Source: Liolophura sinensis
Taxonomy: Eukaryota > Mollusca > Polyplacophora > Chitonida > Chitonidae
Length of the DNA stretch: 64,000 nt
Direction: 5' to 3'
Assembly: GCF_032854445.1 (NCBI RefSeq)
Contig: NC_088295.1
Location: 4,094,501-4,158,500, forward strand
In this document: in pieces, positions 1,022-46,534 of the stretch
Layout of the letters: the number at the start of each line of letters is the position of its first letter
Numbering within the stretch: position 1 is the stretch's first letter
Translations under genes and position numbers: made by a program
Notes under the pieces: generated by a model
The model's input: the letters and a program-made list of their open reading frames with translations, nothing else
Told to the model about the DNA's origin: nothing
Databases searched by the model: none

Positions 1022-1865
1022 TGGAGGACGGTGGCTAATTAACCTTCCTGTGTGTATAAAGTATAACATCCATGAGGAGGACGGTGGCTAATTAACCTTC
1101 CTGTGTGTATAAAGTATAACATCCATGAGGAGGACGGTGGCTATTTAACCTTCCTGTGTGTATAAAGTATAACATCCATGAGGAGGACGGTGGCTAATTA
1201 ACCTTCCTGTGTGTATAAAGTATAACATCCATGAGGAGGACGGTGGCTAATTAACCTTCCTGTGTGTATAAAGTATAACATCCATGAGGAGGACGGTGGC
1301 TATTTAACCTTCCTGTGTGTATAAAGTATAACATCCATGAGGAGGACGGTGGCTATTTAACCTTCCTGTGTGTATAAAGTATAACATCCATGAGGAGGAC
1401 GGTGGCTAATTAACCTTCCTGTGTGTATAAAGTATAACATCCATGAGGAGGACGGTGGCTAATTAACCTTCCTGTGTGTATAAAGTATAACATCCATGAG
1501 GAGGACGGTGGCTAATTAACCTTCCTGTGTGTATAAAGTATAACATCCATGAGGAGGACGGTGGCTATTTAACCTTCCTGTGTGTATAAAGTATAACATC
1601 CATGAGGAGGACGGTGGCTATTTAACCTTCCTGTGTGTATAAAGTATAACATCCATGAGGAGGACGGTGGCTAATTAACCTTCCTGTGTGTATAAAGTAT
1701 AACATCCATGAGGAGGACGGTGGCTAATTAACCTTCCCGTGTGTATAAAGTATAACATCCATGAAGAGGATGGTGGCTAATTTGCCGTCTTGTATGCAGT
1801 ATGAAGTACAATGCACATGATGGGGACAGTGACTAATTTACCTTCTTATGGGTATAAAGAGTGAC
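1022..1865 (+). repeat. 53-bp minisatellite, about 15-16 copies
   Basis: Tandem array with an exact 53-bp step. The landmark ACGGTGG recurs at 1028, 1081, 1134 and so on to 1717, and two decayed copies follow at the 3' edge (about 1770 and 1823). The first 14 units are nearly identical and differ mainly at CTAATTAACC versus CTATTTAACC. Written A or T, the order is AATAATTAAATTAA, so a five-unit block is repeated. The array starts about 20 bp after the target-site duplication of the preceding SINE. Confidence 0.95.
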
Positions 1866-4966: not shown

Positions 4967-6373
4967 TAGTAGGCCTGTATACTACACAATACGCAAGATT
5001 ATAGATGATGCGTCAGATGTTGTACATGTTGCAAAACTCACATTAATTTTTCTGAAACAGTAATTTTGAATGTGAAAGCAAATGCTTGTTCACCATCGCA
5101 TCCCAGGCAAGTTGAGACATCTATCTTCGGTCATGTCAGACAACTTATGAACAGACTGCGCCGACTGATACCTGGAGTTCTAAACTATGCAACCATAGTC
5201 ATCGCATCACTGTAAAAGACTAGGCTGTAATTTCATTAGAGAAATATTATAAATTATGGTATATATATAGAGACACTGAAAGATCTGCTTCACTCCTATT
5301 CAAACTAAACCACATGCATGCAGCTGCTTGGATGTCAAACACTCAAGCGAGAGCAAATGTTGGTAATACTGTGTAGACCGATATACCTGCAACAAAATCC
5401 ATTTCCACCCTCAGTATACCATTTGCATACAACTGCTGTGCTACATTATTTTGCCTATATACATGTACATATACATTTGTTAAGAAACATTTTGTAACAT
5501 ATGGAGTTTTATGATTTTCTGTGTTGTAATATTAAAAATATTAATAATACTTATACTTGGGTATATTGCTTACGTAAAAGAAAACAAGTGCAGAATACGA
5601 GAAAATTGTAAACGATACATTTCCATGACATAGACATAGATGTGGTCTGAGTTCCTATTTAAATTTGGGGACAATATGCTGAGCATAGTGCTCAGTGCTG
5701 AGCGAAAAGCGAGTCACCAACAAGTACGACTTCTTAAAGTCTTTGGTATGAAGCTGTCCTGGTACATATGAAAGTCCTCCAAGATGCAAGCTACTATTTA
5801 CTTTCACTTACCTGTTTTCGCTTTGACAGCTTTATTGCTTCGGACTCTAACTCAAGCGATTAAGTCAGTCAAATCTAATATACAGGATATAAGCTTCCGT
5901 GGTAAAATTAAACTTGGTATCAGCGGTCAGGTCAAAGGCTTTTTTTTTCTGAAATGAGCCGTTCAAAACTTATACATCATTTTATTCCGACTACAGTTTT
6001 GAACGTGTTGTTCTTATCATGGAATGGAGTATGACAGTTTGTCATACTTTGTACATGGGCATATTTAAATTTAAATATATGATCACTTAGACAACAGATG
6101 TTCAAGTCAGTTGGGCATGCAACAGGGCTCTACAGAGAAATGTCAAAAGGGCTAACAATGGCCATCGTTTAGAAGATTAGTGTAGAGTCAAGCACTAATA
6201 AAGTTCAGGATGCACACGAAATATTAAATGCTTGATAAATCCACAATAATACATAATTAATTAATGTACAAGTGTGATTAGAATCGTTGAGAGCTACTAT
6301 GGCCAATGGCTTCCATTCAGATCAACTTGATAGTCATCAATAACCAAAGTTCTCAGTCATATCACAGCAATGT
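4967..6373. other. Spacer, no gene; one hairpin
   Basis: No coding exon recognised. The only clear structure is a perfect 11-bp inverted repeat, CGTTCAAAACT at 5961-5971 (possibly one base earlier) and AGTTTTGAACG at 5995-6005, with a loop of about 24 bp. Confidence 0.5.
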
Positions 6374-6450
6374 AAATAAGCCACCGTCCTCCTACATAGG
6401 AAGATAAATTATCCACCGTCCTCGTCATGGATGATTTTATTTTTATGATT
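6374..6450 (-). repeat. Inverted relic of the 53-bp satellite unit
   Basis: Read on the minus strand this stretch carries CATCCATGACGAGGACGGTGG followed by AATTTATCTTCCTA and a second AGGAGGACGGTGGC. It is a decayed, internally deleted copy of the 53-bp unit at 1.0-1.85 kb in opposite orientation. Confidence 0.7.
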
Positions 6451-6835: not shown

Positions 6836-9027
6836 ATGTCTGACGGGTCATTGGATCCTAAAGAGTCTGGGGAAAATTTGTCGTCTGCTTCGAGTCAAGT
6901 GACGGAATCCCAGCCTGACGTCGGCCCAACTAGTCCAAGTCACACGGCGAAACAGAAAGGTAATGACAAGTCCTAACCACACGACTAAACAGAAAGGTAA
7001 TACTGACAAGTCAAAGTCACACAGTGAAACAGACAGGTAATGCCAAGTCTTAGTCACACGGCAAAGCAGAAAAATAACGACAAAGCCTGTTCACATGGAA
7101 AAACAGATAGGTAATGCCAAGTCCTTGTAACATGCCAAAACAGAAAAGTAATGACGAGGCCTAGACACAATGGCAAACCAGATAAATAAGGAAAATAAGC
7201 GTAGTCTTATAGTGAAACAGATTGGTTATGCCAATTCCTAGTCACACAGTGAAACAGAAAGGCAACGCCAAGCCCTATCATGCAGTGAAACAGATAGGCA
7301 TTACCAAGTCCTAGTCACAATGCAAAACAGAAATGTAATGACGAAGCCTGTCCACATGGCGAAACAGAGAGGTAATGCCAAATCCTAGTCACATGGCAAA
7401 ACAGAAATGTAATGACAAAGCCTGTTCACATGGTAAAACAGATAGGTAATGCCAAGTCCTTGTAACATGGCAAAACAGTAAAGTAATGACGAAGCCTGTC
7501 CACATGGTGAAACAGAGAGGTAATGCCAAATCCTAGTCACATGGCAAAACAGAAATGTAATGACAAAGCCTGTTCACATGGTAAAACAGAAAGGTAATGC
7601 CACATCCTAGTCACATGGCAAAACAGAAATGTAATGCAAAGTACTTGCCACACAACGAAACAGAAAAGGTAATGCCAAGTCCTAGACACACAGTGAAACA
7701 GAAAGGTAATGCCAAGTCTTAGTTACACTGCAAACCAGGAAGGTACACCTGTAATGACAAGGCTTAGTCACATGGTGAAACAAATAAGTAATGCTGACTC
7801 CTAGCCACTGTATATATTTTGATTTTTAGTGGATGTTCTCCTTAAGCCAGCTGGGGATGCTCCAATTATGAGGAAGAAAAAGTGGGCTGTGGAGAGAACC
7901 AAACAGATAGGATGGGTCTCAGAGTTTATAAAAAAGTATATCAAAAGTGACCCATCAGAGAGTCTGGTATGTCAGATTTCCATGTCCTTTTATTTACTTC
8001 AGACTCATGACTTCTCTATCTATAATCAGTATGTTGCCTCCTGTCCTCAAATTGAAATAATCTTTGGGGGGGGGGGGCACACGTTAACTAAGTAGGTAAA
8101 TCAGTGTCTTTACCATCACATGCCTGAAGTCATCTAGAGGCCAGAGGAGTTATGGCCATCTAGCTTTGTGATGAACTTCTGAACATGATAAAGTAAGTGT
8201 AAGGACAGGATGATTTACTAAAACATTTAAATTTCTACTTTTGTTGTAATTCTAGTAACTGAAAAGATAGTGATACATATGATGTCAAATTTGAAGTAAA
8301 AACAACACCCCCTTTTGTATCTTTCTATTTTTCAGTTTTTATATGTAAATCAGTCATTCTGCCCATCACCAGACTCAGAAGTTGGAACTGTTTATGATGT
8401 GAGTGGAATTTTCTTCACATTTCAATTTTATGCTGGTGTTTGCTCTTCCCATATGGTATAGGACATTAATTATCTTGCAACAGGACAAGCGCTATGTTAA
8501 GTGTACTTTGTTCAGCCTTTAAAGGCACCTTCAAGATTTTCATGTACCATTAGGGGCTGGCTTGAAATTAATATTATGTTATGGAAGCAACCAAGTGGTC
8601 CCTGACTTAAGAAGTCACAGGCTCCAATCTGCTTGTAACACTTGCTGGTTTTGCTACAAGGAGGTTCTTTTTAGTCCGGGTGGTCAGACACCTGGCAAAC
8701 GGCTGTCATTTTCTCCAAGCTTTCCACCTTTCTCCATTCAGTAACACCTTCAATTTATAGATATATAAATATTTTTGACTGAAAATAGAGGGTAACTTTA
8801 TTCAGGTAATGTCCTTTATTTACATAGGGTCTACAATTTGCCTAGTGATAAAAATCTATAGTAGATTCAGGTGTCTTGTGGTTTAGTTTAATTTTAACTT
8901 TAGTTGGTCTATTTAATGTTAAATGGAACTGTATTCAGCCAACAGTTATTTTCTTGGTCTGTTGCAGTGTTTTGGAAGTGACGGAAAGCTTGTTCTCCAT
9001 TACTGTAAAACACAAGCATGGGGATGA
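6836..9027 (+). CDS. ATG12: ATG12, autophagy ubiquitin-like protein (4 exons)
   Basis: Exons 6836-6959, 7830-7966, 8336-8398 and 8968-9027, all with GT-AG introns, join in phase to 127 codons (human ATG12 is about 140). ATG12 is a ubiquitin-like modifier. ATG7 (E1) and ATG10 (E2) attach its C-terminal Gly to ATG5, and with ATG16L this conjugate promotes ATG8 lipidation on phagophores. The N-terminal 41 residues are Ser-rich and unconserved, as usual in the family. Diagnostic stretches are [44 protein letters not shown] and [19 protein letters not shown], the last ending in the conserved Trp-Gly with no residues to trim. The start is the first ATG, 124 nt before a donor, in the context GAATATGT. 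Intron 1 is odd: it is almost wholly a minisatellite. The gene converges with CFAP52. The family call comes from remembered conservation but is very secure. Confidence 0.97.
6936..7800 (+). repeat. 37-bp minisatellite filling ATG12 intron 1
   Basis: About 22-23 units, with a regular 37-bp step between about 7361 and 7583 (AAACAGA landmarks at 7361, 7398, 7435, 7472, 7509, 7546, 7583) and a 36-46 bp step elsewhere. The first unit is the end of exon 1 plus its splice donor (GCGAAACAGAAAG|GTAATG). In the middle two unit types alternate, one with CATGGCAAAACAGAAATGTA and one with AAACAGATAGGTAATGCC, giving a 74-bp dimer. Many units keep AGGTAATG, so donor-like sites recur along the intron. Confidence 0.95.
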
Positions 9028-11598: not shown

Positions 11599-14500
11599 TT
11601 ATGCATTTCTTTGTGGGAACTTCCACCTTAAGATGGCTCCGTCTGTGCTGACACTGACAATGAAACGACTGGCAGGGCAGATCTTGATCTTTGTGATGTT
11701 TCCACTGTGACCAATGCCGACATGAGTTACTTCCCCTTCATTATAGTTCCAAACCTGTACAACAAAGTACATGTATACTAGTATTAGGTATATCGAGAAC
11801 AAAGCGTTGGTCAGAGTCATTCATGATGGGTTGATATAAGTGTACCTAATAGCATTTTATCGAATGAAGAATGACTGAGAAACATCTGTCATGTTATTGC
11901 TTAGGTCTGATATTTGGTAAGCTTGGCCGGCTCAAATCAGATGACATCTGAGCCCTTTTCTATGCCCACTTTCAGAAAACGTCGAAACTCATCAATTCTT
12001 AATTAATAACTGTAACTTTGTTGATAAATAATGTTGCCATACGATAACCCTCAGAAAACATCATCTACTCAAACCTGATTTACAACTTTTATGAAAGTGT
12101 GCCCAGCCGAGCCCAAGCCAATACAAGTGAGGTGACCTGTTCAAATCCAGTTTACACTGGGTGGGCTTTGGTTGCTTTAGGTCTTTACCTTGATCAGTTT
12201 ATCATCTCCCCCTGTGACAAACTGGTTGCCTTCCCGGGAGATGTCCATAGCGTTGACCGAACCGGACTTAGAGCCCTCCAACTCTCTAATCATGGAACCA
12301 TCAAAGATTTCCCAGTAGCAGATTTTGCGGTCCGTTCCACTGGTGATCATCTGACACTCCTCCGCACCATAGCACACACACTTGAACAATGTATTGGCAA
12401 ACATAATTTGTTTCCTCACAAATCTCCTGAAAAACACATCATGAATGACTGTAAGTGACGTTGGCCAAAATGAATGGTAACTCTGTAACCTACATTTAAG
12501 ATTTTCCATCACTTAAGGGCGTAGTTCTTGTAATTCAACCTCTTGTAGTACATAATTCAGTTTGGAACTCAAAAGAGCCTTACAGTAAATGTTACCTAAA
12601 TCTTTACCCGATTCAAAGTCCCATCAGGGCCAAGATTAAGACAGGGTTACACTTTTGTGATAAGGAAAATGGCTCTCAGGGAGCCACCCACTCAGCTGAT
12701 GATCTTACTCTAGATCCCAGACAATGCAGGTTCCATCTGTGCTGGAGGACACACATTCCTTGTCTTTTGTGGTGATCTTGATGGCTGTCACCTTGCCCTT
12801 GTGCTCCTTCATGGCCTCTACCAGCTTGGTGGTGATAGCTGGTCCTTTGGGGCCATAACCATTGATGATGTTCCATACCCTCACTTGCCCTTCACCCCCT
12901 CCACTCACAATGGAATGGCCATGAGAGGCACATGCAATGGCTGTCACCCCCTTGTTGTGAGCGTCGTGAATTGTGAACATTTCTTTTCCAGTTTTAGGGT
13001 AAAATGCTCGAATCTTCCCATCATCCCAGGCTACAACATAAGACCATACATGTGATCAATCCGTGGCAAATGATGATGAAATTTTCAACAGCAGCTTCTC
13101 CCACATATATCACCATAATTAAATGTCGTTATTGCCTACCAGCTTTAAGCCATTTAAATTCAGGACAAGTGTACAAATAACATAATAATAGTGAGGAACT
13201 ATCTGAACATTGCCACAGTTGGTCAGTATTCTTACAGTCAGACAAATAAATAAATTTTAGTGTAGAGTAAAAGAGGCTAGATCTTACCACTGATGAGTGT
13301 CTTGCCATCCTGCGCCAGACAAATGGCGTGGCACTCCATGTTGGGCACTTTGATTCTCAGTAACTCATCACAGGTATCTGTCTGCCACACCCTGATGTCT
13401 TCCTTCCCACAGGTCAGGAACAGTTCAGAGGCTCCCCTACACAACATAATAACAGGTACAGATACAATGTTACACCACACCCGCATGGCAGATTATCTAG
13501 GGCTATTACAAAAGGCTTACAGTTCCAGAAGCAATGTTCATGCTTTGTGAACAGAGTAGTTTAATTTGGAAGGTGACAGTTAACTGGCTATTTCCTATGA
13601 AGAACTACATGAAATACTAATTTTGTTTTTTCTGGTGTCACTTGCATGCTAGTATTGAAATGGTCACAACTTCTTATGAGAGACTCAGATGAAACTTACG
13701 GAGGGAATATGATGTCATTAACAGCTGTGGAGTGCCTGGTCCCAATCATCTCATGTGAAAACTCCGAGTAGTTAAATCTGTATATATGTGATTTGTCTGT
13801 GCCAACGAAAAACTGGAACAGAAGAAAGAAGAGTAAGCATGTATTTATCAACAGTTATTCCATACATGATTTGTGATGTGCAAATAGCAAATTGTAGGCA
13901 CTAGTTTACAATGTAAAACGACATGTCAATTCAGTAATATCTTTATCAGAGTGTGTTTGTTAGGCTTGGTGGACATGTGAATGTTAATTGCTTTTACCTG
14001 GTGACCAGAGCCTCTCAGTGTAATCGATGTGACAGCGCCATGGACCTTCTGCTGCTTCCTGTGGTTAAGAACAAAGGCATCAACAATAAGACAATTGCTT
14101 ATATAAACTGTAGGAGAGAAAAAAAATAAAAAGGCCTAAAATACATAAAAGAAAGAAAAAATGCACCAGATTTACGGCAGAATAGGAATATTTAATCAAA
14201 TTACCAACTTGGTATTGTACTCCACTAACATTCAGGGCTAGGCATTTGTAACTTGTTATTTACATGTGAAAGTACTTACCCCTGCACACGTTTCAGTTTC
14301 TCCCCCTTGACCACAGCGACTGTGCCATCTCCAGCTCCCACAAGTACCTCCCCAGTCTTCAGCAAGGCCAGAGCTGTTACTCCTAGACTAAACTTGTCTT
14401 TTGGGGGACCGTCAAACTGGTAGAGCTTAGTCTTTACATTTACACTAATGATATCACCGGTTGTTGTTCCACAGTAAAAGAAGCTGTCATCAGATTTCAT

Positions 14501-16863
14501 CTGTGAAATAGAAGAAAACAGAATTAAATTGCATTTCTGTTTCATTCAGCAATTTTTGGACTGACACACTGGAACAAATGTGTAATGTGTGTGTTGCTTT
14601 TGCTCTATTTTTATGTGACACCTAAATGCTTACCTGAATGCATTTGATTTTGCGTTTCAACTGGCCCATGTTGACGTCAGTAGCACGTACTTTTCTGTTG
14701 TCCAGGTCTAGGTCCCATACTCTCAAAGTACAGCTGAATAAAAAGTGAAATTAATTAAAATGCAGTTTTTACTGAACTTTAAAAATCTGATAATTTTCTA
14801 GAAGATGTGATAGTCTAATCTGTCAAAGTGTCCCACCAAGTGTTTGTTCGATAAGGACTTGAATGATGTAAATCATTGATGTAAAACGTTTATGTATCTA
14901 AATGCTAAAGTAAATAATCAAGATAAAGCTGTTTTCTGTTGAGTGAGTGAGTGAGTGCTTGGGGTTTAACGTCGTACTCAACAATTTTTCAGTCATGTGA
15001 CGAAGGAATCTTTAGGGTGCATGTACGTGTAATGTGCCTCCTTGTAGCAGGACGGATTTCCACCGCTCTTTTATTTAGTGCTGCTTCACTGAGATGACTT
15101 ACCGAAGGCAAGTAAGCCGCCCCGCCCAAGCCATTATACTGATACAGGTCAACCAGTGATTGCACTATCCCCTTCATGCTGAACGCCAAGCGAGGAAGTT
15201 ACAACTTCCTCTTTTAAAGTCTTAGGTGTGACTCGATCAAGGATTGATCCTGGATCTACCGGTCCCGAAGAGGACGCTCTACCAAATGTGCTATCCGGGC
15301 CGGTTGTTTTCTGTTGTGTGGTGATGATTAACAAATAGATGTTGTGACCGTGCAGTACTCACTCTCCTCCAGTGACAAAGACATTGTCGTCATTGTTAGA
15401 GTAGCAGATACAGGTGGTTGTACCAGCACTCTTCACCTGAGCAGGGGAGCCACAGATAGCATCCTTCTTATCAATACTCCACACCACAACACTGAAACAA
15501 TATAAAATGTACATTACAATGATTTCTAACTCAAAATTCATACAAATTATTAATACAGCGTTTAAAGTCCAGAAGATTAGCAAATGCAAAATTATGAAGA
15601 TTCTCACTCATGGGCAAGATATAATCGTTTGTACATGAAAATTCAACTGCAACAAGTGTTATCCTGGTGTAGTAACCGTAGCAGCCTTTACCTGCCATCA
15701 TCCTGACCACCCAGAGACACCAGGTATTTGTCATTTGGGGAAAAGGCCAAAGCCTCCACGTTGTTTTTGTGAAGGACAAGACGGCAGTACAGCTCTCTCC
15801 TCTCAAAGTCCCAGATAATTATATCAGCCTGTAAGACAAAAAATATGGTGAACTGGTGTTTAACATAAGTTGGCAAAAATCTCAAAAGTGCAAAAGCAAA
15901 CTGAAATCCTGTGCAGTAGTCTGGTCAAAGGCTTACAAGATTTAACGGTGGTCAAATGAAATAACATGGAAAAAGTTGTAACTGAAAGGCATAACATTGA
16001 TTTAACAGAAACGTAATTCAAAAGCTAAATTCTTGCCTTAAATCCCATGTATGTGATTTGCCCGGAGGCCAAGAATCGCCCACTCTTGGAGACAGCAATG
16101 CAGGACACATCATTGGTGTGACCTGTCAGGAACTCTTGCTTTCTCTTTCTTGGTCCCTTCTCATCAGAGATCTCCTCAATAATAACCGTACTACCCAGAG
16201 GGTAGATAAAATGTTGTCTGTCAGGATGCACTATAAGCCCAGAGGGAACCTGACCTGAAAACAACAACATGGTATATACATTTATCAGCTAGTGTATTGA
16301 CGAGTTACTTCAAAATACATATGTTTCACTTTCTACACAACATGTAGTATAAATACAATGAGACAGGGTTAATTCCTTGTACAAAATAACACTGAAATGG
16401 TGCACTAGTCCAAATGTACGCTCCAGCTACTTACAGATCATGCAACTTCACAAAATTAAATTTTGTCAACAAGGAATGTGTATATAAACTGATACTGTGA
16501 CTACACATTCCCATAGTGACAAATGTCGGTATAGAGGCCCAACGGTAGGACTACATGTAATGTTAAAGTATCAACAATCTCCAACTAATTTTAAATGTAT
16601 ATGTTTCCCAGTGCAAACTGTTATTTTGTCAAGTTGGACTTGCAATATCATGCTACTTGTGGATAACAATTTATTACAACGTACAGAACAGTTTCATTAG
16701 TTACAAGGAAAGGCACATTTATCTACAATAATAAAATCACTACGAACGGCTGACAAGATGGTTGAAACTGTTCAGAGCTTTTTGACCCGCTAAAACACTT
16801 ACCACAGAAGCCAATAGTGGCTTCAAGTTCCAATTTGTCAACGTCAAACTGTGTGTCTGGCAT
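11599..16863 (-). CDS. CFAP52: CFAP52/WDR16, ciliary WD40 protein (12 exons)
   Basis: Exons in transcription order: 16863-16803, 16254-16037, 15828-15692, 15491-15363, 14733-14634, 14500-14280, 14058-13998, 13812-13700, 13436-13288, 13030-12709, 12426-12189, 11754-11599. They sum to 1905 nt, all phases close, giving 634 residues plus stop (human CFAP52 is about 620). CFAP52 is a WD40 double-propeller microtubule inner protein in the B-tubule of ciliary doublets. Landmarks along the chain are IYPLGSTVIIEEI, SPNDKYLVSLGGQDDGSVVV, CGTTTGDIISVN, KDKFSLGVTALALL, HEMIGTRHSTAVNDIIFP, VPNMECHAI, GGGEGQVRVW, TSGTDRKICYWEIFDGSMI and the C-terminal HSGNITKIKICP, DGAILRWKFP. Intron 2 has a GC donor (AAG|GCAAGA); the others are GT-AG. 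Intron 4 contains a SINE. An X-box-like site lies upstream. Identification is very secure and the exon edges are read directly. Confidence 0.97.
14942..15304 (-). mobile_element. SINE-A inserted in CFAP52 intron 4
   Basis: Full-length SINE-A in the same orientation as CFAP52. On the plus strand it runs from GAGTGAGTGCTTGGGGTTTA (tail) to GCTATCCGGGCCGG (head). It is flanked by a perfect 12-bp direct repeat, TGTTTTCTGTTG, at 14930-14941 and 15305-15316. It lies wholly within the intron between exon 15363-15491 and exon 14634-14733 and does not touch the splice sites. Confidence 0.93.
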
Positions 16864-27668: not shown

Positions 27669-28517
27669 TCAGGTGTACAAGGGATTGGGGTCAGCCTTCA
27701 TAATGGCCCGGGATCTCGAGTGCGACCAGATTCCTCCTGTTAGATTCTCACCATCAGTTCTCTTATAGCTCAGATTAATCTTCCTCTCGATATCGTGTGT
27801 AATCGATTGTCCCAAACGTTTGAAAGATGCTAGCTCCTCCCGGAATGCTTTTAACTTTTTCGAGAAGTCTCTGCCTCTCGTATCTTCATAATCAGACCAC
27901 GTAAAATTCTGCGCTGTTAGTGGTTCGAATCTGCGGGCTTGTATTATTGTTCCCGGCGGCCCAGCCACTTGCTTGGGGCGGGAATCGGTAAACTGGTAAG
28001 AGGACTGGTGCTTACCTCTAGCAGACACCGTCTCAGAGCTAAAATTTGAGTTCCTGGGGTCGTTTAGCACGAGTCGTGCAGTAAACTTTGGGTAGTCCTC
28101 AGCCGTGAGCTCCTGCTCGTTCACCTGCGTGAGAGGGGCCTCGATGACAAACACGTCATCTGTATCCAGGTAACACTGCCAGGACTTCTCGTCTGCAAAC
28201 CCCGGGATGATATAGTCAGCTGAAAACTCTTTCTTTACGTTGTGGCCGAGCCGTCTTAGGGTATGTTTAGCCTCTAGCCTCAGATTTCGTCCGTCGACAT
28301 CAACTAGTACTTCCGTCACGGAGGCAAAGGGCTCTCCGGGACGGAATTCCAGACTACGGCACTCTTGTAGAGGTCGCAAATCTAACCGTATCTTCAGACG
28401 GTTTCCCTGAGTTTCCATCCCGAGTCGACACTCGGACGAGGCCATGCTAACTTGGCATATGTCTGCGCAGAAATACTTCGGTGGAACCGCACAGAGCCCA
28501 TTGCCGGACAGGTACAA
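27669..28517 (-). CDS. Alpha-crystallin-domain (HSP20-like) protein
   Basis: Single open exon of 282 codons. Residues about 40-130 form an alpha-crystallin domain: LKIRLDLRPL as first strand, VTEVLVDVDGRNLRLEAKH as the central strands, KKEFSADYIIPGF at the usual K-E-F-x-x-x-Y-x-x-P position, then DTDDVFVIEAPL, a good match to the D-G-V-L-x-I-E-A-P-L end of HSP20 family members. A charged 150-residue extension follows (SSYQFTDSRPKQ, REELASFKRLGQ), which is longer than in ordinary small heat-shock proteins. The family are ATP-independent holdase chaperones. A chaperone role here is inferred. Translation could begin at residue 1 or at Met26 (MASSECRL). A TATAAG sequence lies at about 28563-28572, roughly 50 nt before the first ATG. 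A damaged paralogue sits 4 kb downstream in the same orientation. No transmembrane segment or signal peptide seen. Confidence 0.8.
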   Translation of the reverse strand: MYLSGNGLCAVPPKYFCADICQVSMASSECRLGMETQGNRLKIRLDLRPLQECRSLEFRPGEPFASVTEVLVDVDGRNLRLEAKHTLRRLGHNVKKEFSADYIIPGFADEKSWQCYLDTDDVFVIEAPLTQVNEQELTAEDYPKFTARLVLNDPRNSNFSSETVSARGKHQSSYQFTDSRPKQVAGPPGTIIQARRFEPLTAQNFTWSDYEDTRGRDFSKKLKAFREELASFKRLGQSITHDIERKINLSYKRTDGENLTGGIWSHSRSRAIMKADPNPLYT

Positions 28518-28631
28518 CAGAGTTACGACCTGCTCGGATTAACTCTTGGCACCAAGTAATCTCTTATACAGTGCTTAGATATAGGATTAAGGTGGCGTAC
28601 TTCACAGCGATTTCAGACAGGCACATGCCAG

Positions 28632-33916: not shown

Positions 33917-35990
33917 TTAGAAATGTCCATAGAAAGATTTCCTCCTGTCATTCACACTCCCGAATTCCCTCCCTACCCCCAATAAATTAGCTTTGTCAGC
34001 AAGGTCTTTGTGGCAATGAATCAGTATTAGATTACTTAGTCTAGATTGAGTCATTGTTGAACGCAAGTATGTCTTCAACCTACCTAGATTTGAAAACGAT
34101 CTCTCTGCAGAAACACTGGAAATTGGGATTGTTCTGAATATCTTTAGAAGTTTGGCGACCTCTGAGAACAACCCGGTTTCAGCAGGTACCAACGGGGAGA
34201 TACTTGTATACTTCAGGATTTCAACAACGGTTTCAATAGCTGTTACTTTCTTAAGGCCGTGCATGACGCCCGGGCCTTCTCACACTACCCGAACCTGTTC
34301 TGGTAACATATTCAGCTGGCGTTTGAGGCGACTTCCGTCTAGGTCTTTGGCATACAATTTAAGAATTTTCTCGTTGACATCCAAATCCCGAACTCCATCC
34401 CAATTTGCAGCCTCGAGAAGGAGATCCTGTACAGCTTTTGGAACATTCAAGGAGGATTGGTCATACCGCTTTGAGATTTCCTGCGTTACCAAATCCAGTA
34501 CCTCAAAGTAGATTTTCCGAAAGTACTCTTTTGGAGAGGAAAATTTATGTGGATCAGGTCCTTCACTCACACGCCTGGGTCGACGAACATACCTCGGTAG
34601 ACAAGGATTGTCTGTGTGTTTACTGGCAGCCTCCAGCACCTGTTGATAAAATATCTCAAACGACCCATCTTCACGCTGTCCGGTTAAGGATTTTTTTGCC
34701 ACGTCAGTTTCGATGAGAGCGAAGCTTTGATTCCATATTCGTCATGCGTTGTGGAATTTATTTCCTCCATGGTCTTCATAAAAGAGCTTCATAGTTGTCC
34801 ACGACTGATTGTATTGCACCTGTGCGGATCGTCCATCTTGTAGGACACAGTGGACGCAAACGTGGGGATGCAGGGGATGTTTCGCTTTGTATCGTCTGGA
34901 ATAAAGCGTCTCGTTTTGGTGAAAAGCGAATGAGTTGGTATATTTCCTGAATTAGACTAAGAGAGTCCCTAACAATACGACACTGTTAAGTAGCGTCTAG
35001 CCTACAAAGGTTCAAGCAATGGGCGAAGCAGTGTACATGTAAAGCAGAAGGTTCTTCTTTCCTGCTTTGTGTAGCCACACCTGGAAAGCGTCCAATCATA
35101 TTTGATGCGGCGTCATAACCCTGACCAGTACATTGGTTAAGTGGCAAAGAGCACTGAAGGAGGACATCTTTAATGGATTTGATCAAAGTGTCTGAATCTG
35201 TTTTGTCAACATTCACCATTCCTATGAGGTCTTCATGGATTTCGAAATCGGTGTCCACCCAGCAGATGCATATGCATAACTGCTCTTGATTGTTGATGTC
35301 CCTTGTCTCATCAGCGATAATGCCATAAAAGCAGCTTCACGGATCTTGGCTAGTATCTGTCTCGGCAAACCTTGCCCCATCAAAAAATACACTCATTCAC
35401 ACAATCAGGTGAAAGGTACTTGTTTTTTACAACCCAATTTTTCAGTGCAGGAATGTCTTCTGATCTCATTAAAAGAAGTTGTTTAAGGTTGGATTCCATA
35501 TCGTGGTGTCCGCGGATAGCGTTTCCCTGCCTCAGCAGCATTCGCAAACTTGACAGCTGCTTCAGAAACATTTCTCTGTTAAGAGCTTCAGGTTTAGGTA
35601 ATTGTTCCGAAAGTTGTGCCTGGAACGGTCTATTTTCATGGGATTTTAATTTATACACTACTTCCCGATGCCAGTCACTCTGTTCATGTCGCTGAAATCT
35701 CTGTCCAGCCTTTTTCCAGTTTTGGAATCCATCCTTTGTAAATGCACTCTCCAAATTCTTACTCAGGGTCAGTTCCTTGTTTCGGTGGCATTTTCGGCAA
35801 TAAAAACGAAACACACTCTTCTTGGTCAGACAGAGGGAAAGCCATTGGAAGTCATTGTACCAATCTTTGGTATATTTTCTGTGCTCAGCTTTGCTCCCAA
35901 CCCTTTGTCTTGTCGATTGGAGTGTCTCGTCGCCTGCTGGTTGATGTAGGGAATCTCTACTTAAGCAACAATCCGCAGTGCAATGAGGCG
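33917..35990 (-). pseudogene. Decayed hAT-type transposase (TTF zinc finger, ZMYM1-like)
   Basis: Minus-strand homology runs through at least four frames. About 35.99-35.38 kb: HQPAGDETLQSTRQR, then a TTF-type zinc-finger segment (WYNDFQWLSLCL, FYCRKCHRN) and WKKAGQRFQRHEQSDWHRE. 35.35-34.99 kb: the catalytic-region signature ADETRDINNQEQL and CTGQGYDAASNMIG, then ALHVHCFAHCLNL. 34.70-34.28 kb: middle part with RRVSEGPD and FRKIYFEVLDLV. 34.26-33.92 kb: the hAT dimerisation motif AERSFSNLGRLKTYLRSTMT then RLSNLILIHCHKD. Stops and frameshifts between the segments make it inactive. An ORF at 36318-36593 may be further N-terminal sequence, but this is weak. No terminal inverted repeats or 8-bp target duplication were established. 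Confidence 0.85.
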
Positions 35991-39059: not shown

Positions 39060-41035
39060 TCATCTGTTGACATCCCTGTGAAGGTACAATGACATGTGCT
39101 CAACACAGAAGGCAACCATTGAGTTCTGTCCGTCTTGTAAAAAAATGGTCTGCTTCCTGGCATTTATCTAGCCAACCCTGAAGAACAAGTTTGAGTTCTC
39201 TGGACAACGCTGGGTCTCGCTGAGTTCATGACTTGATCTGTTTTTGGTTTAGAGGTCCATGAATGTCCAGATGAGTAAAAAGTTGTACTTGGGATATCCC
39301 GGGATAGGTGGATTTTCGCCGCCTGATGAATCAAGAAGTGGCAAACGACTTTAAGCGTCTGCGTTTGCATTTAACTTACCAGATTTGTAGACCAACACAT
39401 ATTCGTAGGCTGTCAAAGTCAATGCCCAGCGCTGGATACGCGCTGCTGTTATGGCTGGTATTCCCTTGGTTTCTATTAATAGTCCAAGTAATGGTTTGTG
39501 GTCACTCATTATGGCAAAATGTCATCTATACAGAAGTTGACGAAATTTTTTTTACCCCAAATACGATGGCTGAGGCCTCTTTCTCCAGCTAGGAATACCC
39601 CTTTTCAGCTGTAGAGGGTGTGCGCGACATGAAGCTGACGGGTCGCTCTGTTCCGTCCGCCATTTTGTCAGAGAGCACTGCCCCAATTCCGTATGATGAC
39701 GAGTCATAATCCAGTACCAAGGATTCAGTCTTAGCAATTGAATAGCTGTCCAATTTGGAAACTTGATTAACTGTTTGTTTGTAGTCCCCCCATATACGGA
39801 GAGATTTGTCACTGTTCTCTACTGGAGCTGCCCACTCCAATACTTCACAGGTTCTGCTGTCCGTTCTGACTGAAGTCTCTCCAGTTCCAGGTCAATTTTC
39901 TCACGTAAGGCGTACGATACTGGTCTTGGTCTGAAGAATTTAGGCTGAGCATTTTGCTTCACAGTTATCTTGGCCTTAACTTCTTTAAAGGTGCCTAATT
40001 TCTCTTTGAACAGGTCAGGATACTGGTTTAACACAGTTCATATTGTAAATGATTTAAAGACTTGAAAATGTCTCTCCAATTCAATTTGATTTGACAACCA
40101 GTCTCTGCCTAGCAAGTTGAGACCGTTACCTTTAGTGACAGCAGCTGTGAGTTTAACGGCTTGTCCATTGCATGATACTGGATCCATAACTGTCCCCAAT
40201 ACTGGAATTTCCTCCTCTGTGTAGGTCCTGAGTTTAACTTTTTAAGTTTTCTGGAGTTCCCAATTTTCAACTGGTTGCATGTCTTTTCATCTAGCACAAC
40301 AACTGATGCTCCAGTCTCCAATTCTCACTGAACACTAACATATCCAATGTCCATGGCAACCTGATATGATTAGCAAATCACGCTGAAGGCTAAACACAGT
40401 ATAGATGTCCTGGGGGCCTCCGTGGCTCAGTTGGTTAGCGCGCTGGCGCAGCGTAATAACCCAGAAGCCTCTCACCAATGCGGTCGCTGTGAGTTCAAGT
40501 CCAGCTCATGTTGGCTCCCTCTCCGGCCGTACGTGGGAAAGTCTTCCAGCAACCTGCGGATGGTCATGAGTTTCCCCCAAGCTATGTCCGGTTTCCTCCG
40601 GGATCTGCCCGGTTTCCTTCCACCATAATGCTGGCCGCCGTCGTATAAGTGAAATATTCTTGAGTACGACGTATAACACCAATCAAATAAACACATGAAT
40701 TTTATTGACTTCTGGTAGTTTTACAGGTTGTGTGGATTGCTGAGTGTGTTGGAGGTCCTGGGTGTTTTTAGATGCTAATTCCATAGCTGTAGATACTTCA
40801 CGTGCCCTTTGGAACGTTAATCCACGCTCAGACAGTAATCTTCTTTGGAATCTGTCATCTTTCATTCCACATATCAGCTTATCTCTAAACTTTTTTGTCT
40901 AGAGATCGTCCAAAGTCACAATGTTCAGAAAGTCGACTGTTGAATTTGCATCTCTGGACACACGCTGAGAGTGGGGCATTGTGATCACCGACGATTTTCA
41001 CCAGTTCGATAAACGTTTTTCACCATGTTTTTCAG
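39060..41035 (-). mobile_element. Ty3/Gypsy retrotransposon relic, gag to RNase H
   Basis: Minus-strand pieces in order. Gag C-terminal part at 41.03-40.69 kb (KFRDKLICGMKDDRFQRRLL). Protease with the ETGASVVVLD active-site type at about 40.33-40.11 kb. Start of the RT domain at 40.03-39.77 kb (YPDLFKEKLGTFK, RPRPVSYALREK, IWGDYKQTVNQVSKLDSY). RNase H at 39.74-39.45 kb (GIGAVLSDKMADGTERPVSF, SDHKPLLGL), ending in the NANADA.SRLPL-type motif at about 39.37 kb, and a linker to about 39.06 kb. The RT core including the YxDD region is absent, and several frameshifts separate the blocks. A SINE-B is inserted between gag and protease. No LTRs were recognised. Confidence 0.85.
40412..40695 (+). mobile_element. 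SINE-B, full length, inside the Gypsy relic
   Basis: Best complete SINE-B in the window. The head is GGCCTCCGTGGCTCAGTTGG then TTAGCGCGCTGGCGCAGCG, the B-box region GTGAGTTCAAGTCC. The body is CCGTACGTGGGAAAGTCTTC, CAGCAACCTGCGGATGGTCA, then ACCATAATGCTGGCCGCCGT. The tail, AGTGAAATATTCTTGAGTAC then GACGTATAACACCAATCAAA, has an AAT-rich end. It is in the opposite orientation to the retroelement it interrupts. Confidence 0.93.
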
Positions 41036-43689: not shown

Positions 43690-44205
43690 GGCCTGTGATG
43701 TAGAGTGATGGATACTTGTGATGTAGTGCGTGTGGGAACACAGCAAGAGCGAAGGATACCTGTGATGTAGAGACTGTATGAATACAGCAAGGGTGAGGAT
43801 GCCTGTGATGTAGAGACTGTATGAATACAGCAAGGGTGAGGATGCCTGTGATGTAGAAAGTGTGGGAATACAGCAAGGCTGAGGATGCCTATGATGTGGA
43901 GAGTGTGGGAATACAGAAAGCCTGACGGATACCTGTGATGTAGAGCGTGTGGAAATACAGCAAAGGTGACTGATACGTGTGATGTAGAACGTGTGGAAAT
44001 ACAGCAAAGGTGACTGATACGTGTGATGTAGAGCGTGTGGAAATACAGCAAGGGTGACTGATACGTGTGATGTAGAGCGTGTGGGAACAGAGCAAGGGTG
44101 ACGGATACGTGTGATGTAGAGCGTGTGGAAATACAGCAAGGGTGACTGATACGTGTGATGTAGAGCGTGTGGGAACACAGCATGGGTGACGGATATTTCA
44201 TGTAG
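43690..44205 (-). repeat. 44-bp minisatellite, about 12 copies
   Basis: TGTGATGTAGAG landmarks recur at about 42-45 bp. A typical unit is TGTGATGTAGAGCGTGTGG, AAATACAGCAAGGGTG, ACTGATACG. The unit is stop-free in all three minus frames, giving three long overlapping ORFs that are not genes. One short copy lies near 43695. Confidence 0.93.
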
Positions 44206-44279: not shown

Positions 44280-44720
44280 ATTTGTCATACTGGGTACGTC
44301 CTTCAATTTGTTATAGTTGGCACGTCCTTGAGTTTGTCATTCTGGGCACGTCCTTCAGTTTGCTCTACTGGGCACGTAAATCAGTTTGTTACACTTGACA
44401 CGTTGATCAGTTTGTTATACTGGACACGCCCTTCGGTTTGTCTTACTAGACACGCCCATTGGTTTTCTACACTGTAGAAGTCCATCAGTTTGTTACACTG
44501 GACACGTCCATCAGTTTGTTATACTGGATACGCCCTTCGGTTTGTCTTACTAGACACGCCCAAGTCCATCAGTTTGTTACACTGGACACGTTCATCAGTT
44601 TGTTATACTGGACACGCCCTTCGGTTTGTCTTACTAGACACGCCCAAGTCCATCAGTTTGTTACACTGGACACGTCCTTTGCTACATTGAACGCGCCTCT
44701 CAGGTTGTTATACTGGACAC
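44280..44720 (-). repeat. 26-bp minisatellite containing the GPCR stop codon
   Basis: About 16 units of 26 bp (some 31), plus-strand form CACGTCCTTCAGTTTGTTAT then ACTGGG. The distal end of the array overlaps the receptor gene: GTGTCCAGTATAACAACCTGA (minus strand, 44720-44700), which encodes the last five residues and the stop, matches the array copy at 44615-44595 in 20 of 21 positions. Confidence 0.92.
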
Positions 44721-45938
44721 TGACACTGACCGCGTGGCTGTGGACTTGAGAGGCAGAGTAGTACCGCGCCGGGCATGGCGCATGCCCCGTCGGCAGAAGC
44801 ACAGAGTTGCCAACGAGGCCTGCCTGAAGCGCTTAGCACTGAAACAGTAGAGGAGGAAGTTAAGGCTGTGGTTCGTGTACATGAGATTGTTGATAACGGT
44901 GCGGACGAGGTGGTAGATAGCTGCCTGGTGAGGTGTGGAAGCCAGGTCGAACTGGCGCTCCACGATGATCAGGACGGCCATGGGACCAACGAGCAACAGG
45001 AAGGTGAAGGAAACCAAGAGTAACATCCGGGTGATCTGCCCTTCCCTGTTCCTATTCCGCTTGACTAGATCCACTTCCTGGCTCTTGCCGATCTCACCAG
45101 ACGAAGTAGAACTTGTTGACGCCGAGGATGACACGGGTTTCGTCGGTGCAAAGCGGACCGTCATCTGCGCATTCCCCATCCCTTGACGGATCTTTTCCGA
45201 TTTGTTCAACCAAACAATGATCAAAATGTTCATCACGAAAAGGCTAGTCATGGGAATGAAACAGTAAACACACGCGTCTATCCAAGGCCAGATTTGGAAC
45301 AGAAAGTACTTGTTTTCTGGTCCGGTTGGGTAACACGTTTCCGTTTGGGTTTTTGGGTCATATACCATGCCACGAGTGAAAAAGTTATGGGCATCTAATG
45401 CGCATGTACAAATGGCAATGATGCACATGATCAGTTTTGTCCTCGGTTTCCATGACGCCGCGTGCAGCGGAAAACGTACAGCCATGTACTTCTCAAATGT
45501 CATAGCTATCATGACGGCCACGTCAAAATGGATGGTAAAATAAAACAAGAAAAATAAAAGACGACAGGACCAGGGATTAAAGATTTCGTAGCCTGGAAAC
45601 TTTCTGATGAGGAATAGAATGTTGTAGACGAGGATCATTGAATCGGCAATGGCTATAGCGGCCATGTACTGACAGGTGGTGGAGCGCCTGAGGGCCGGGG
45701 ACAACAGCGTGACGAACGACCACATATTACCCAGAATCCCCAGGCTCGAGCACACCGGAACGTAATAATTGTCAATGGCTATGGCCACCTGGAATTCAAT
45801 AAATCCTTTGAGGATTTCATCTTTTCCCAAATCTAGATTGTTCTTGGATCCCCAGACATCGCCCTGGGTAGTGGACAGGGTACCATTGGTTGTGATGTTC
45901 AGTTCAGCTGGACACGGACACTCTGTGGACATGGCCAT
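44700..45938 (-). CDS. Class A (rhodopsin-like) G-protein-coupled receptor
   Basis: Intronless 412-codon ORF with seven hydrophobic segments: TM1 about 56-80 (GILGN, N71), TM2 92-112 (D99 in IAIADS), TM3 126-150, TM4 168-188, TM5 212-243 (P229), TM6 304-326, TM7 343-365. C125 and C202 are placed for the usual TM3-ECL2 disulfide. The N-terminus has sequons at N14 and N18 and no obvious signal peptide. ICL3 is long and Ser/Thr-rich (269-281). Departures from the family: E-K-Y (149-151) in place of D/E-R-Y, no Trp in TM4, VGP instead of CWxP in TM6, and NFLLY (360-364) instead of NPxxY. The helix-8 region SAKRFRQ is followed by C380 and C382, possible palmitoylation sites. It resembles the peptide-receptor-like GPCRs expanded in molluscs and annelids. 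The ligand cannot be told from sequence. Its last codons lie in a minisatellite. Confidence 0.92.
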   Translation of the reverse strand: MAMSTECPCPAELNITTNGTLSTTQGDVWGSKNNLDLGKDEILKGFIEFQVAIAIDNYYVPVCSSLGILGNMWSFVTLLSPALRRSTTCQYMAAIAIADSMILVYNILFLIRKFPGYEIFNPWSCRLLFFLFYFTIHFDVAVMIAMTFEKYMAVRFPLHAASWKPRTKLIMCIIAICTCALDAHNFFTRGMVYDPKTQTETCYPTGPENKYFLFQIWPWIDACVYCFIPMTSLFVMNILIIVWLNKSEKIRQGMGNAQMTVRFAPTKPVSSSASTSSTSSGEIGKSQEVDLVKRNRNREGQITRMLLLVSFTFLLLVGPMAVLIIVERQFDLASTPHQAAIYHLVRTVINNLMYTNHSLNFLLYCFSAKRFRQASLATLCFCRRGMRHARRGTTLPLKSTATRSVSVSSITT

Positions 45939-46534
45939 CTTCCTCGTATGCCTGGGAGATGACGTCGATTAGAGATTCACAAGGAAAACATTGACTAAAA
46001 TAGCTAACCATCTGTGAACTTTCACATTCTGCAAGGCTCAAAATGTACTGACTATTTTGTCTTTGTATCCCACAGAGTAATGTACAGCTGTTTTGTTAGG
46101 TGGTGTGTGTCGCTATGCTGTGGTGGATAGTCATCCAGAGGTTGCAGGGTAATAAGAACATCTTGCGTCATCTAGTCTGATTCATGTATCTGTAAAGAAC
46201 AATAAAAAGCATTTACTTTTGAAGAACAAGTTATGCCATTGGACAGCATCAATTTATCAAAACAGAAAATGTAAACCTCCACCTGTCAAAAGTAGAAAAA
46301 TAAATCCATCAGGTAGCAACTATCGGTCGTTCTGCATATTTCTAAACCCCAGTCTATAATGTAATTAAGATCAAGAGGGTAGTCATGCATTCAGTCAGAA
46401 TTTGATGATAGACAGCGTGACGTTGAAAATGATACCTGTTTTTTTTCGCTCAGCGTTCATGTAGCACTGAAGAAAGCCCGATGGCTGCTTGATTGGCTCG
46501 TGCATATCGGGAATTTTCGGCTTGCTGTTTCAAT
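45939..46534. other. GPCR upstream region, no motif resolved
   Basis: Presumed 5' UTR and promoter of the minus-strand receptor. No TATA box or exon boundary could be assigned with confidence. Confidence 0.4.

Follow-up and report, generated by a model that had tools for sequence, protein, structure and literature searches.

A mirage-like minisatellite across the exon 1/intron 1 junction of ATG12 in the chiton Liolophura sinensis, probably one of many tolerated by-products

The DNA analysed here (the window) is a stretch of 64,000 nucleotides from Liolophura sinensis (NC_088295.1, positions 4,094,501 to 4,158,500 of the forward strand). An ATG12 gene and a minisatellite that runs from its first exon into its first intron are found near the start of the window:

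6836-9027, plus strand: ATG12 locus, four coding exons
6836-6959, plus strand: coding exon 1, ending in phase 1 with ...SPSHTAKQK and the first base of a V codon (sequence and protein match to ATG12)
7830-7966, plus strand: exon 2, its acceptor AG at 7828-7829 lying beyond the array edge
8336-8398, plus strand: exon 3 (sequence and protein match)
8968-9027, plus strand: exon 4 including the stop codon (sequence and protein match)
6932-7810, plus strand: 37-bp junction-derived minisatellite, 23 full units and a 14-nt remnant (wrap-around alignment)
6932-6968, plus strand: unit 1, with 28 nt of exon 1 and 9 nt of intron
7345-7602, plus strand: units 12-18, recently duplicated (distance matrix; unit coordinates from the wrap-around alignment)

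The joined product has 127 amino acids, of which residues 38-127 align with ATG12 from structure 4gdk (E 9.4e-41), which we take to be human. The Pfam family APG12 (PF04110) is matched over its full length (E 3.1e-34, 1-87 of 87), and the product has the ubiquitin-like domain and Trp-Gly end of ATG12. With the native donor the frame across intron 1 joins K-V-D-V-L-L, and since frame and homology both fit, the first donor (6960) is probably the one used.

Intron 1 occupies 6960-7829, and only its last 19 bases are free of the array. The tandem-repeat finder TRF recovers a period of 37 at 6932-7745 (21.8 copies, 72% matches), which wrap-around alignment lengthens to 7810. The first-pass annotation had described about 22 units of 37 bp that take in the last ~20 nt of exon 1; the unit length stands, while the exon share is 28 nt and the count is 23 units plus the remnant. 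Its proposal that the array is built from the gene's own exon-intron junction is borne out, as unit 1 agrees with a consensus of units 2-23 (from which it was excluded) at 33/37 positions overall and at 25/28 in the exonic part, well above chance: the top score in 20,000 shuffles of exon 1 is 19, and the best matches in the rest of the window are 19 on the plus strand and 17 on the minus strand. Units 13 and 17 are identical, 12/16 and 14/18 differ by one position each, and unit 5 (7083-7119) has one difference from unit 14; sister units such as 13 and 17 point to duplication within the array. When the assembly was searched with the ATG12 unit, with common words skipped and the best candidates scored, all 10 of the matches listed fell in the intron 1 array. 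Another, degenerate unit that seemed by eye to lie farther upstream in exon 1 (AGTCAAGTGAC) was discarded, 0.95 and 0.53 of shuffles being equally good.

Donor-like sites recur along the array. Their strength was scored as pairing to an 11-base U1 tail, a crude measure, and three positions are needed in what follows:

6960-6965, plus strand: native donor GTAATG (AAG/GTAATG), no G at +5, U1 duplex -6.6 kcal/mol
6975-6977, plus strand: in-frame TAA reached from the tested later donors, giving a 46-aa product
7037-7042, plus strand: strongest downstream donor-like copy, CAG/GTAATG, -8.1 kcal/mol

The native donor resembles those of exons 2 and 3 in U1 energy (-5.3 and -6.6) and is not the strongest in intron 1. 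The exact string AGGTAATG occurs nine times in 6836-7829, native donor included, and twice elsewhere on the plus strand. Seven of the 58 downstream GTs in the intron match or beat the native donor in U1 pairing, against 2.2 expected from non-array window sequence and a maximum of 6 among 199 overlapping control blocks; GT is kept in 17 of 21 downstream copies, 7 of which are no weaker than the native site. A ladder of donor-like sites, as had been described, is present. The accompanying statement that a later donor would run into a stop at once also holds, in that all nine downstream donors tested for frame (those within 0.2 kcal/mol of the native donor or better) lead to the same 46-aa product, ending at 6975.

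To place the ATG12 array among others in the same assembly, 181 exon matches of three protein families (helicases, kinases and kinesins) were sampled, some of them exons of one gene or of similar paralogues. The first 141 comprise 30 loci each of PF00069 and PF00271 with 1500-base flanks, a further 43 PF00271 and 35 PF00069 matches flanked by 300 or 250 bases, and 3 PF00271 matches inside loci already taken. The sample takes in every one of the 76 listed PF00271 matches and 65 of the 138 listed for PF00069 (the best 30, plus 35 picked for short open frames). A replicate with criteria fixed beforehand draws on 132 kinesin matches and takes the first 40 listed without internal stop, with 130-base flanks. 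The check by eye covered, L075 aside, exon ends whose domain match had an array no more than 30 to 40 bases away. After this check a junction-crossing array is found in 13 of the 181 exon matches:

L049, L050, L056, L077, L078, L082, L091, L106, L120 and L127: donor side, eye-checked (10 cases)
L112 (1-275), L113 (1-298) and L148 (1-159), in gene orientation: acceptor side, units formed of the intron end with AG and the exon start (3 cases)

Machine criteria alone give 9 donor-side and 3 acceptor-side crossings; L078 is counted by eye because its exon extends past the domain match. Exon sequence makes up as little as 2 nt (L091) and 5 nt (L127) and as much as 119 nt (L077) of an aligned array. 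L091 and L127 are weak as junction-derived cases because so little exon lies in the aligned array, the share in L091 being 11 nt on a reading of a longer-period TRF row. Arrays that proved intronic throughout on reading (L070, L099, L136, L153, L182) were not counted, nor were an array inside its exon (L025, 15 bp x 1.9) and 10-bp repeats inside exons found at a lower score cut-off (L043, L044); L075 (17 bp x 2.1), beyond its exon end, was also left out. In the helicase L082 (372-731) the 66-bp unit is a multiple of three and has no in-frame stop in the stretch examined, so that a later donor would add repeated peptide. Gene names for the other sampled loci, such as DDX24-like for L082, are motif readings. 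ATG12 is thus not special, and such arrays are apparently common in this genome.

In four of these genes the direction of copying can be read from protein conservation. The exonic part of the array is conserved as far as the residue next to the junction in L050 (against DDX41), and to ...NYIHRIG in L049 (eIF4A), ...EDRCHRVGQT in L056 (a SWI/SNF-related protein, presumably SMARCAD1) and ...YRSYVQSK in L077 (Dicer). As the exon end inside each array is conserved protein, the exon was copied into the intron. In ATG12 the KQK at the end of exon 1 aligns with KKK of 4gdk and with VQK of 1wz3, the latter presumably Arabidopsis ATG12, and copying from exon to intron is likely here too, judged from sequence and by analogy; since only the final codons of exon 1 (KQK) align with other ATG12 proteins, the case for this direction leans in part on the four other genes.

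Conservation of the donor columns of the repeat unit was compared with that of its other columns. In ATG12 the nine donor columns score 0.85 against 0.82 for the others (rank 14 of 37 circular windows), with a similar outcome in the array-by-array test (0.852 vs 0.828, p 0.50), and few columns of the unit are less conserved than the G preceding the donor (12/22 units). Across 11 donor-side arrays, ATG12 included, GT is kept at 93 of 106 downstream donor positions, and 54 of the 106 equal or surpass the native site in U1 pairing; the donor window has a mean percentile of 0.55 (p 0.49) and the stratified odds ratio is 1.59. Individual arrays differ: donor columns are better kept in L049 (0.892 vs 0.756, percentile 0.89, p < 0.001) and L050 (0.979 vs 0.909, percentile 0.96, p < 0.001) and worse kept in L056 (percentile 0.20, p 0.047), with percentiles between 0.18 and 0.72 in the other arrays, all p values being optimistic because units are related by duplication and cells are not independent. 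A blanket statement that donors are nowhere under selection was therefore dropped, as the pooled comparison behind it (0.910 vs 0.898) masked the better retention in L049 and L050 and the worse in L056. In the DDX41-like L050 (1643-2501) the 39-bp unit consists of the exon end plus a GTGAGT donor, and all 21 downstream donor copies have GT, 11 of them as strong as the native one. On these column comparisons there is no consistent trend over the 11 arrays and nothing in ATG12, while L049 and L050 may keep their donors; together with the odds ratio, their retention leaves room for donor maintenance in some genes.

Whether arrays favour one side of the exon was assessed with arrays of period >=20 and length >=60, randomly shifted within each locus. 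Such arrays make up 4.8% of the sampled sequence (three loci being entered twice), and random shifts predict 9.6 crossings per exon end. On the donor side 9 are seen (65% of shifts as high), so donor junctions are not targeted but merely not avoided. On the acceptor side 3 are seen against the 9.6 expected (0.2% of shifts as low), which is suggestive only of avoidance of acceptor junctions. The first 141 matches give 10 donor against 2 acceptor cases (p 0.039), the kinesin replicate (n=40) 0 against 1, and the total 10 against 3 (p 0.09). When exon ends with an in-frame stop nearby as a bound are compared directly, the difference is not significant (3/147 vs 7/146, p 0.22; with tighter bounds p 0.33-0.50). 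With the replicate at 0 vs 1 and the direct test at p 0.22, a donor/acceptor asymmetry is not retained as a firm result. Array coverage of the first 25 bases outside the first 141 exon matches is 1.4% upstream and 7.5% downstream; for the first 26 bases outside the 40 kinesin matches it is 5.3% and 0%. A simple reading would be that an extra donor behind a working donor is nearly harmless, whereas changes just before an acceptor affect the branch point and tract. It is a tentative and somewhat doubtful extension of this that donors are transparent to minisatellite growth and acceptors are not, with splicing having to pick the first donor or sometimes using the copies. Were it so, many genes would run with ladders of near-equal donors, as in L050, and the arrays would offer a ready stock for lengthening exons and making new introns.

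Arrays of this kind are known from amphioxus as mirages, described in the available parts of two accounts for Adh3, the globins BflGb6 and BflGb9 and troponin C, with PGBD5 similar (PMC3087553, PMC3902484). As there, the ATG12 units hold the exon end and the intron start in tandem across the boundary, and AG/GT is kept in many but not all copies; either boundary is involved in the amphioxus cases, and the sampled chiton genes likewise have arrays on the donor or the acceptor side (available parts of PMC3087553, PMC3902484). According to the same portions, amphioxus mirages leave regular splicing undisturbed (PMC3087553, PMC3902484), as RT-PCR suggests, and BflGb6 haplotypes have 6 and 3 units (PMC3087553; also PMC3902484 for both points). 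Unlike those arrays, the present one is in a mollusc and contains 23 units, which have diverged further than those of BflGb6 (81-100% in the accessible text; PMC3087553, PMC3902484), and here 13 of 181 sampled exon matches carry one. An amphioxus host was considered and dropped: GFP-family genes, which amphioxus has, were looked for and not found, a negative that does not establish their absence, and eight neighbouring haemocyanin domains of the molluscan type (PF14830) are present. Tandem repeats in the first intron of an invertebrate gene are also described for earthworm metallothionein genes, where the available part of the source does not state that the units are junction-derived, unlike those of ATG12 (PMC12783039). 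In the open-licence literature, as far as its accessible text goes, no report of a mirage outside amphioxus, molluscs included, was found, and open-licence papers yielded nothing on duplicated donors.

We consider it most probable (about 0.8) that ATG12 intron 1 is a mirage, one instance of a wider, tolerated by-product and not a device dedicated to ATG12. The array would have been seeded by tandem copying of the exon 1/intron 1 junction and would have grown to about 23 units, presumably by slippage or unequal exchange. The spliceosome most likely picks the 5'-most donor, and the later copies would drift without detectable selection. ATG12 still reads through because the first copy retains both the coding sequence and the donor. 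Since the same layout lies beside unrelated genes, and arrays are numerous (about 5% of the sampled sequence) and cross donors at about the chance rate, a general by-product is indicated, of which ATG12 is one instance. The array probably has no function, and ATG12 splicing is assumed, by analogy with amphioxus, to be normal.

The first-pass annotation went further, proposing that copy number could tune ATG12 output or splicing fidelity. On such a reading the number and strength of downstream donors would set the level of productive splicing, with later donors yielding a truncated message. The excess of strong downstream GTs (7 vs 2.2), the uniform 46-aa product of nine tested donors and the better-kept donor columns of the two other long arrays, L049 and L050, speak for it. 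Donor columns in ATG12 that are as variable as the rest, a pre-donor G kept in 12 of 22 units, 11 arrays with no consistent trend and the same layout in unrelated genes leave the tuning claim unsupported and make such a regulatory ladder improbable. The relation of exon and array could also be reversed, with an intronic array arising first and its edge unit being recruited into exon 1 by a donor shift, so that SPSHTAKQK would be repeat-derived. Although the best alignment covers exon 1 only from residue 38 and leaves the preceding tail uncovered, this order of events is unlikely: the KQK codons, which fit KKK and VQK of the two ATG12 proteins, lie inside the unit, exon 1 upstream of 6932 has no trace of the repeat (0.95 and 0.53 of shuffles as good), and the exon is clearly the older partner in the four other genes.

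Tandem copying of an AGGT or splice-junction segment is shared with reported intron gains in ATP2A1, fission yeast and potato RdRp, as far as the available text of the source describes them; unlike these, ATG12 needs no new intron, and its acceptor is outside the array (PMC4974935). The corresponding account, the Rogers model, would have intron 1 created when an exon segment with AGGT was duplicated in tandem. AG/GT does occur within the units and the intron is nearly all array. However, the array ends at 7810 and the acceptor lies at 7829, so the two splice sites are not both in copies; exon 2 does not start with a unit copy, its best match being internal and equalled by 10% of shuffles; and the consensus unit has, by eye, no polypyrimidine tract, all of which makes a gained intron very improbable. 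Insertion of a dispersed or transposon-borne minisatellite at the donor is harder still to credit: arrays abound in the window and a single inverted recurrence of one 53-bp unit is seen, but the ten listed unit matches (best candidates, common words skipped) all lie within the ATG12 array, which is not the pattern of an introner.

Taken as a mirage, the ATG12 array extends this class from amphioxus to a mollusc and suggests that it is common there. It makes the question of how a donor is chosen when many near-identical ones follow a single exon testable without engineering, and gene models and variant calls at donors in such genomes may be error-prone. As a finding on ATG12 by itself this is rather ordinary; worth following are the abundance across the genome and the ladders of donors in L049 and L050.

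Elsewhere in the window, listed arrays cover 10,314 of the 64,000 bases, more than the 4.8% of the sampled gene loci, under criteria that differ somewhat. Other features of the window are:

1023-1782, plus strand: 53-bp array of 14.3 near-identical units
6371-6392, minus strand: inverted copy, diverged (3 mismatches in 22), of the start of the 53-bp unit, upstream of ATG12 exon 1, with a second partial unit copy beside it, seen by eye
11602-16288, minus strand: probable CFAP52 gene, without TRF array; the frame 12708-13055 matches CFAP52 chains (E 1.9e-38), and further WD-like frames are seen by eye, of which 14279-14545 has no Pfam match
27672-28538, minus strand: open frame of 289 codons, no Pfam family matched
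34989-35336, minus strand: open frame with a DUF4371 match, presumably transposase-like
39592-39891, minus strand: retroelement fragment, reverse-transcriptase RNase H
44703-45968, minus strand: open frame of 422 aa with a rhodopsin-family receptor domain; arrays at 44281-44677 and 43705-44195 lie just past its 3' end
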